Shown here piece after piece: positions 18,688 through 63,830 of a DNA stretch of 64,000 nucleotides; the first letter of the stretch is position 1, and each line of letters begins with the position of its first letter. The notes beneath the pieces were generated by a model. That model searched no databases. It was not told where the DNA came from and saw only the letters and a program-made list of their open reading frames with translations. Location of the stretch: the NCBI GenBank assembly GCA_947493325.1, contig CANLQI010000001.1, positions 996,501 through 1,060,500 on the forward strand. The letters are read 5' to 3'. The DNA comes from an uncultured Sphingomonadaceae bacterium (GTDB lineage Bacteria > Pseudomonadota > Alphaproteobacteria > Sphingomonadales > Sphingomonadaceae). Position numbers and translations under genes: made by a program.

Positions 18688-19968
18688 ATGGCAAAAGCCA
18701 ACATTCCCGAACGACCAGAAGGCGCCACCGGGATATTGGTTCTGGCTGATGGGTCAGTGGTGTGGGGCCGTGGTTTCGGCGCGACAGGCGAAGCGGTGGG
18801 CGAACTGTGTTTCAACACCGCCATGACAGGGTATCAGGAAGTGATGACCGATCCCAGCTATGCGGAGCAGGTGATTACCTTTACCTTTCCGCATATCGGC
18901 AATGTCGGCAGCAATGATGAAGATATTGAGGCGGACAGCGCGCATGCGCTTGGCTGCGTGGTGCGCGAAGATGTGACCGCGCCAAGCAATTTCCGTAGCA
19001 ATGCAAATTTTACCGAGTGGATGGCGGCCAATGGGCGCATCGGGCTGTCAGGCGTCGATACCCGCGCGCTCACCCGGCGTATCCGTGAGGCAGGCGCCCC
19101 CAATGTGGTGATTGCATATAATGAAGATGGCCGGTTCGATATGGACGACCTCCTCGCGAAAGCGCGGGCGTGGGGCGGGTTGGAAGGCCTCGACCTTGCC
19201 AAGGATGTGACCCGTGACGACACAGGCATATGGACAGGCGGTCCATGGCGGCTAGGATTTGGTTATGAGGAAAGTGAACCCTCTAACCCGTCATTCCGGC
19301 GAAAGCCGGAATCCCCTTCTGTTTCGAGCGGTAGTACAGAGGAAGGAGATTCCGGCTTTCGCCGGAATGACAAAGATATACCTCATGTCGTGGCGATTGA
19401 TTATGGCGCGAAACGCAATATATTCCGCAACCTTGTACGTGCGGGTGCGAAAGTCACTGTGGTTCCTGCACAGACTTCGCTGGATGATGTGCTGGCATTG
19501 CAGCCGGACGGCGTGTTCCTTTCCAACGGCCCCGGTGACCCCGCCGCGACGGGGGCATATGCGGTGCCGGTGATACAGGGCCTGCTGGAGCGCGATATCC
19601 CGCTGTTCGGCATCTGCCTCGGCCACCAGATGCTGGCGTTGGCGGCAGGCGCGAAAACCATGAAAATGCATCAGGGGCACCGCGGCGCGAACCATCCGGT
19701 ACAGCGCGTCGGCGGAGGCTGGGACGAGAGCGCCGATGGAGGGGAAAGACTGGTCGAGATTACCAGCATGAACCACGGCTTTGCGGTCGATGGCACGACG
19801 CTCCCCGCCAATGTCACCGAAACCCACCGCAGCCTGTTCGACGGCAGCAATTGCGGCATTGCGTTCAAAAACAAAAACGCATTCGGCGTGCAGTACCACC
19901 CCGAAGCCTCTCCGGGGCCGCAAGACAGCTTCTATCTGTTCAAGAAATTTGTGGGGGGATTGGGGTGA
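18688..19968 (+). CDS. carA: Carbamoyl-phosphate synthase small (glutaminase) subunit with a repeat-derived insert
   Basis: CarA hydrolyses glutamine and passes ammonia to CarB for arginine and pyrimidine synthesis. It has 426 residues from the ATG at 18688, longer than E. coli CarA (382). The N-terminal domain has ATGEAVGELCFNTAMTGYQE; the class I glutaminase domain has DYGAKRNIFRNL, the nucleophile in LFGICLGHQML and the histidine in VQYHPEASPGP. Residues about 201-228 (from PSFRRKPES to GFRRND) are encoded by a REP-pair palindrome at 19290-19371 and lie in the linker between the two domains. The frame is kept, so the enzyme is presumably functional. The stop overlaps a small lipoprotein start (GTGA). 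Confidence 0.96.
   Translation: MAKANIPERPEGATGILVLADGSVVWGRGFGATGEAVGELCFNTAMTGYQEVMTDPSYAEQVITFTFPHIGNVGSNDEDIEADSAHALGCVVREDVTAPSNFRSNANFTEWMAANGRIGLSGVDTRALTRRIREAGAPNVVIAYNEDGRFDMDDLLAKARAWGGLEGLDLAKDVTRDDTGIWTGGPWRLGFGYEESEPSNPSFRRKPESPSVSSGSTEEGDSGFRRNDKDIPHVVAIDYGAKRNIFRNLVRAGAKVTVVPAQTSLDDVLALQPDGVFLSNGPGDPAATGAYAVPVIQGLLERDIPLFGICLGHQMLALAAGAKTMKMHQGHRGANHPVQRVGGGWDESADGGERLVEITSMNHGFAVDGTTLPANVTETHRSLFDGSNCGIAFKNKNAFGVQYHPEASPGPQDSFYLFKKFVGGLG
19290..19371. repeat. REP-pair (REPIN-like) palindrome inside carA
   Basis: Two exact 23-base inverted arms (19290-19312 and 19349-19371) flank a 36-base spacer. Each arm holds its own hairpin, ATTCCGGC-GAAA-GCCGGAAT, behind a GTC head. This is the architecture of paired REP sequences mobilised by RAYT (Y1) transposases. 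The whole element is in frame with carA and free of stop codons. A relative with different stem sequence is at 63735-63830. Confidence 0.9.
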
Positions 19969-20231
19969 GGCATCTCGCTTGGACTTTTATTCCTTTGGCT
20001 GTGCTTACGTCTTGCTCAGACCGCTATTGTACTGATCCGGACTTGTGTTGGGCGAATCGGACTGATGTCATTCAGGCCGCGGAACGATGTGGCATTGAAG
20101 ACTTCAACCCGAGGGAGGATAGCGCCGGTACCTTTTTGCCTTACGTCGAAGGTGAAGACCCTGATAGAGGGCCAAAAACGAATTGCATAATTGAAGACCT
20201 TGAAGGTCAAGGACTGATGGTAACCCACTAA
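19965..20231 (+). CDS. Small putative lipoprotein between carA and carB
   Basis: An 88-residue protein with no family I recognise. It starts at a GTG overlapping the carA stop (GTGA) and its TAA shares a base with the carB ATG (TAATG), so it is translationally tied to both. The N-terminus [17 protein letters not shown] is a short lipoprotein signal with lipobox LTSC (Cys17). The mature part is acidic and has four more cysteines (CTDPDLC, ERCGIED, TNCIIED), possibly disulfide-bonded. Being a secreted protein in a pyrimidine/arginine operon it probably has no role in carbamoyl-phosphate synthesis. Confidence 0.65.
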
Positions 20232-63734: not shown

Positions 63735-63830
63735 CCGTCATTCCCAGCTTGACTGGGAATCTATCTCACAACGGTTGAATTAATAGGTATATGTCGCGAG
63801 ATAGATTCCCGCTTTCACGGGAATGACGGT
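63735..63830. repeat. REP-pair (REPIN-like) palindrome, intergenic
   Basis: Two inverted arms (63735-63767 and 63798-63829) share a GTCATTCCC head and a GAGATAG...CTATCTC outer match around a 30-base spacer. Each arm forms a small hairpin, ATTCCCAG-CTTGA-CTGGGAAT and ATTCCCG-CTTTCA-CGGGAAT, so the arms differ inside. It nearly fills the gap between nspC and the dehydrogenase gene and could stabilise or end the transcript. It has the same layout as the element in carA. Confidence 0.85.

Follow-up and report, generated by a model that had tools for sequence, protein, structure and literature searches.

An in-frame CGTC-type REP pair in the CarA linker of a sphingomonad and recurrent palindromes at the same linker in Sphingomonadaceae

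The carA gene and its insert

The window, by which we mean the whole stretch of 64,000 nucleotides that was analysed (C1:996501-1060500 of a 2.57-Mb genome of an uncultured Sphingomonadaceae bacterium), contains a carA gene with zero internal stops across its 426 codons (Table 1). The encoded protein scores 393.7 bits against the TIGR01368 profile, above the cut-off of 307.35, and its structural-database matches are E. coli CarA chains (E 6.5e-116), the best solved chain being 1t36_B. The nearest named CarA, from the uncultured Sphingomonadaceae bacterium isolate 4-2062, is 95% identical and is followed by those of Erythrobacter, Sphingomonas and similar. In the alignment with 1t36_B, E. coli residues 185 to 188 lie opposite residues 197 to 229 here and thus the E. 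coli linker is indeed short, as an initial sequence-only reading of this DNA had stated. Immediately downstream, a small open frame (19965-20231, plus strand) has a possible GTG start that overlaps the carA stop and terminates on the carB start; by eye, its N-terminus is lipoprotein-signal-like.

Table 1. Coordinates of carA and of the parts of its insert (window numbering)
Feature	Position	Strand	Basis or remark
carA, carbamoyl-phosphate synthase small subunit, bears the insert	18688..19968	+	open frame, ATG at 18688, stop at 19968, 426 aa
Linker codons at the junction of the N-terminal and glutaminase domains, residues 196-231	19273..19380	+	relatives' linkers most often 8-10 aa
REP pair in the carA frame (28 codons, 84 bp) with outward tags	19289..19372		exact arms; 117 genome pattern matches; missing in two congeners
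Left REP unit: CGTC tag, 8-bp stem ATTCCGGC/GCCGGAAT, GAAA loop, then CCC	19289..19315	+	sequence; tags and tails counted in 103 units
Spacer separating the left and right REP units	19316..19345	+	sequence
Right REP unit: TGTC tag, stem and loop as in the left unit	19346..19372	-	sequence; exact arms

The linker holds a pair of inverted 23-nt arms at 19290-19312 (plus strand) and 19349-19371 (minus strand) that match with 0 mismatches, an arm match expected 0.00 times on the basis of 100 dinucleotide shuffles of the window. A repeat search lengthens the arms to 30 nt at 97% complementarity, 22 nt apart. The sequence-only reading had described exact arms, each a hairpin with a GAAA/TTTC loop, lying in the carA frame without a stop at about residues 201-228, and this description is confirmed in full, as the stems are 8 bp long, the 426 codons are open and the REP pair codes for CarA residues 201-228. 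The limits it gave, 19290-19371, are those of the arms; the full extent is one base larger on either side once the tag bases are included. The RNA fold of a 92-nt stretch has an energy of -59 kcal/mol (z = -9.78), which 0 of 200 shuffles equal. An AlphaFold model of CarA, computed with an alignment of 29 CarA sequences, has a mean pLDDT of 77 and values below 50 at residues 196-206 and 211-226; the insert is thus without predicted structure, and is predicted to be disordered.

Dispersed copies and empty sites in congeners

If the palindrome were a mobile element, further copies would be expected in the genome and empty sites in sister species, and the sequence-only reading had proposed looking for both. 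Searching with the carA arm at up to 3 mismatches found 93 units in the source genome (reversed-pattern control 0), and a degenerate unit pattern found 117 matches (control 0), so that the palindrome is not unique. The same pattern found 46 and 2 matches, respectively, in two other sampled species of the genus (G001 and G002; controls 0). Among 103 distinct units in the stretches fetched around such matches, the tag is CGTC in 74, TGTC in 23 and CCTC in 1, and the tail is CCA in 49, CTC in 27 and CTA in 18; the left unit of carA ends in CCC. All 15 close pairs in the source-genome stretches are arranged tag-outward.

Both congeners have a palindrome-free CarA linker of 9 residues at the position where the source protein has 39, in flanks that are 84-91% identical to those of the source at the DNA level. 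Since both sampled congeners are empty at the site, the insertion is recent, as had been supposed. The source linker is 90 nt longer than those of the congeners, in frame, which leaves 6 nt unaccounted for by an element of 84 nt, and no target duplication was recognised in the carA alignment with the two congeners. With neither a target duplication nor a transposase identified (see below), the case for mobility is made by copy number and by presence and absence among relatives, and on these a mobile in-frame insertion into carA is supported.

Recurrence, reading frame and tolerance

The sequence-only reading treated the palindrome as a single event. The insertion itself stands, but it is not a one-off, for the linker has been struck repeatedly by different palindromes. 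The CarA protein found a match in 396 of the 397 genomes searched in the family, and in 54 of these, including the source, one match covered almost all of the protein together with the linker. All 54 were fetched, and 47 carry palindrome-family sequence, in frame and stop-free, between the GxGY and HVVAIDYG motifs: type A in 16, B1 in 15, B2 in 7, C in 5, D in 3 and a further type in one (L182). A is similar to C and B1 to B2, and D is the CGTC type of the window. L169 has one arm only and L188 a single B1 unit, and the remaining seven genes (L035, L144, L157, L170, L171, L186 and L187) have other or short linkers. A type C pair is also present in G065, which has a partial bridging match, bringing the total to at least 48 of the 397 genomes. 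Palindromes were found in 0 of 44 carA genes from genomes that lack a full bridging match (43 by script, L049 by eye), a non-random sample (24 + 20) picked from the listed best matches, and no bridging match was found in 24 genomes from other families of the order. Of 44 long linkers, some of them duplicates, 35 have an inverted repeat better than any from 50 shuffles; it is no better in L036, L127, L136, L137, L144, L146, L150 and L151, and ties in L166. L136, L137 and L144 are without a recognised palindrome type. By eye, the further type in L182 (CGAGCGCCAGCGAGG / CCTCGCTGGCGCTCG) is apparently doubled.

Clustering of whole inserts by similarity was set aside as a means of counting events because the outcome depends strongly on the threshold (50 inserts form 45 clusters at 80% identity, 33 at 70% and 10 at 60%), and a tree was used instead. 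This quick, single-gene tree of the CarA core, with the linker removed, has 165 distinct rows out of 173 parsed (50 palindromic, 107 uninserted and 8 other; L049, L177, L179, L182, L188 and L299 were left out). It requires 48 label changes for seven states, 29 for inserted versus not, and 35 with merged types and the 8 other rows excluded, where changes are gains and losses taken together. The starred branches alone force 14 changes for A/C, 12 for B and 3 for D, with a direct swap counted in two. Pairs of relatives illustrate the same pattern: L141 and L142 have type A and type C, respectively, in one linker position with flanks 94-95% identical; L181 has type A and L184 type B2 (flanks 91-94% identical); and L127 has type A next to an empty neighbour, L131 (flanks 89-91% identical). 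Turnover of the carA palindromes looks fast. In L149 and L152, 105 of 111 linker positions are identical between flanks of 85-89%.

Host genomes tend to be rich in the type that they have in carA. Across 45 typed genomes, a set without L182, L188 and G065, the abundance of the carA type has a mean percentile of 0.594 versus 0.500, a value reached in 0 of 5000 permutations that ignore kinship. Types A and C drive the trend, the carA type agreeing clearly with genome-wide abundance in both (medians 85 vs 9 and 37 vs 9); the agreement is weak for B (64 vs 48) and absent for D (24 vs 30). Counting the carA copy, carrier genomes have 7-236 units of A, 18-47 of C and 11-117 of D, each with a control of 0; the B pattern, which is loose, matches 3 to 27 times in the controls of its carriers and exceeds control by at least 6 (G211: 14 vs control 8).

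The inserts are read with a bias of frame. In 19 type A inserts one phase is used by 19/19 forward arms and 18/18 reverse arms, whichever arm comes first, a count whose effective n is lowered by common ancestry and which may carry a composition bias, the inserted genes being best matches to an inserted query. The type A forward arm of L172, which is second in order and broken, begins in another phase and is not part of the 19/19. In 18 of the 19 inserts another frame is also without stops but is used in 0, and its mean net charge is +8.1 versus -2.8 for the frame in use; the remaining frame is interrupted by stops in 12. Type C arms likewise keep to one phase (5/5 and 5/5, with the G065 copy reading in the same way), and B1 inserts use all three phases. 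Reading in a single phase despite an open, strongly basic alternative points to a filter at the level of the protein, and selection against strongly basic linkers likely explains the bias.

The CarA linker is not the only place in which such sequence is read in frame. The ileS gene of the source genome (above the TIGR00392 cut-off; L210 / L269, C1 from about 176884) has three in-frame palindromes of two types: a D pair common to the congener G001 and missing in G002, a B2 pair, and, closer to the C-terminus, a further D pair. Palindromes also occur in L278 and L280 at the linker that holds the B2 pair, in a survey of 30 loci from 35 genomes where several frames are cut at the locus ends and L292 is poorly aligned. 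A helicase-like frame around 1500-1523 of L001 also has an in-frame REP-type stretch (RHSGESRN...GFRRGD), the reading as a helicase resting on a DEAD score of 24.7 bits, below the cut-off of 26. A REP pair at the start of a prmC-like frame (L002, around 1500-1576) may be leader and is not counted, since the true start may be downstream. The candidate view of carA as a unique hotspot is weakened by the three ileS palindromes and the linker shared with L278 and L280; with the helicase-like copy, they make carA one of several tolerant places, and we claim no special target site.

Based on these observations, we consider it highly probable that a CGTC-type REP pair inserted into the flexible CarA linker, where it would be translated and tolerated, and that this has happened repeatedly in Sphingomonadaceae with palindromes of several types. 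The units would be a short, non-autonomous repeat that was multiplied in the lineage, and a pair of them plausibly entered by transposition the linker that joins the two CarA domains. The length of the element is divisible by three and the frame that it entered has no stops, so translation should yield ~28 disordered residues, and the enzyme presumably remains functional. The linker would tolerate additional polar or acidic sequence, genomes would differ in the palindromes that are abundant in them, and selection would purge copies that are frame-shifting, stop-containing or strongly basic when translated.

Alternatively, the linker could be a preferred DNA target, so that the recurrence reflects insertion preference and not tolerance. 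Many insertions of several types in one linker are what such a preference would give, yet in 18 of 19 rows the first arm of type A begins anywhere from 2 to 10 codons past the anchor (the measurement for L033 is unreliable), flanking DNA in common is not apparent by eye, and the palindromes that occupy the site are unlike one another. In addition, one ileS linker is palindromic in three examined genomes (the source, L278 and L280), as tolerance predicts, and we regard a target preference as unlikely. It is quite unlikely, too, that the inserts are retained for a benefit to the enzyme, whether an improvement or a tuning of, for instance, how the glutaminase domain is coupled to CarB. The consistent phase and the acidic or polar composition of type A would suit such a role, and some inserts look common to species, as in L149 and L152, where the linker is more conserved than its flanks; however, most of the 397 genomes have no bridging match, the inserts of close relatives can differ completely, and purifying selection on harmful frames accounts for the bias without any benefit. 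The frame bias and the recurrence do not establish an adaptive role.

A broader form of the insertion-and-tolerance reading, in which unlike palindromes are rapidly gained and lost at the CarA linker, are screened by frame, and leave disordered and often acidic linkers of 30-60 residues that measurably alter the coupling of glutaminase and synthetase, is rather unlikely; if true, selfish repeats would have been convergently recruited as CarA protein sequence. In any case, the CarA linker is a replicated natural experiment, with unlike in-frame palindromes in dozens of species and empty-site relatives, and it permits tests of how repeats become protein, which frames are tolerated and at what rate inserts turn over. 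The young copy of the window, with its perfect arms, offers a handle on the movement of CGTC REPs, for which no transposase is known.

Repeat class and possible mobilisation

The elements resemble the CGTC-1 REPs described by Di Nocera, De Gregorio and Rocco 2013 (PMC3733652), which are reported to have a CGTC tag that is often TGTC or CCTC instead, an AT-first stem of 8 bp, a loop of 4 nt and a short unpaired tail that is mostly CCA, to form inverted dimers, and to occur in alphaproteobacteria, including sphingomonads. The carA units have CGTC and TGTC tags, as do 97 of the 103 fetched units taken together; their stem, ATTCCGGC-GAAA-GCCGGAAT, is of 8 bp with AT first and a 4-nt loop; and the family is multicopy and dispersed (117 matches versus a control of 0). 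Tag, stem, loop and dimer form thus fit the CGTC-1 REPs, and the tail agrees only partly.

The 2013 article reports intragenic CGTC-1 REPs in several species, for example in tRNA synthetases of 'E. lithoralis' and S. alaskensis, and REPs at about the same site in recB of two Xanthomonas species. What its available text describes are scattered intragenic copies with one same-site pair, whereas the CarA linker shows many strikes, several types and a phase bias. The Rickettsia palindromic elements (RPE) cited there, of which RPE-6 is equated with CGTC-1 REPs, are similar in being in-frame palindromes in genes of likely functional proteins, and the carA element likewise keeps the frame of the conserved gene around it and is missing in close relatives; they differ in their hosts, and the recurrence of unlike palindromes at one site is absent from the account of RPE in the available text of PMC3733652. 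We found no published description of palindromes in carA in the open-licence PMC literature, among the matches listed. Intragenic REPs are already known. As far as the listed matches and the available part of the 2013 article go, what appears to be new is how often a single linker has been struck, the involvement of several palindrome types, and the filtering by frame.

The sequence-only reading had called the element a REPIN, moved by a RAYT transposase, and suggested a search for the RAYT gene. The carA element looks like a REPIN, being made of short hairpins as an inverted pair, and the dispersal of inverted REP pairs over the genome and the tag-outward layout shared by all 15 close pairs in the fetched source-genome stretches are also as in REPIN-RAYT systems. 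However, the tag of those systems is of the GTAG type and not CGTC/TGTC, and a transposase search with PF01797 (Y1_Tnp, RAYT) gave 0 matches in the source genome, so that no RAYT gene flanked by REP was found there. The source genome has 117 units without a Y1_Tnp match, while G002 has 1 match and only 2 units; at least one match is present in only 11 of the 50 genomes examined; and the available text of PMC3733652 reports no transposase association for the CGTC REP super-family. Mobilisation by RAYT is thus unsupported, and we judge it very unlikely that the element is a RAYT-mobilised REPIN. An assembly or annotation artefact is extremely unlikely, for, while misassembly is possible at repeats, the insert is free of stops and frameshifts, sits on a 1.9 Mb contig and has similar counterparts in Pontixanthobacter rizhaonensis (L066), Sphingomonas sp. 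35-24ZXX (L076), Sphingopyxis indica (L080) and Sphingobium indicum (L090).

Within the genus, the load of CGTC REPs varies nearly 60-fold (117, 46 and 2 in G000, G001 and G002, respectively), and the sole Y1_Tnp match among the three lies in the genome with 2 units. The window itself has a second CGTC-type REP close to its end, a single unit (GTCATTCCCGTGAAAGCGGGAAT) at 63805-63827 on the minus strand.
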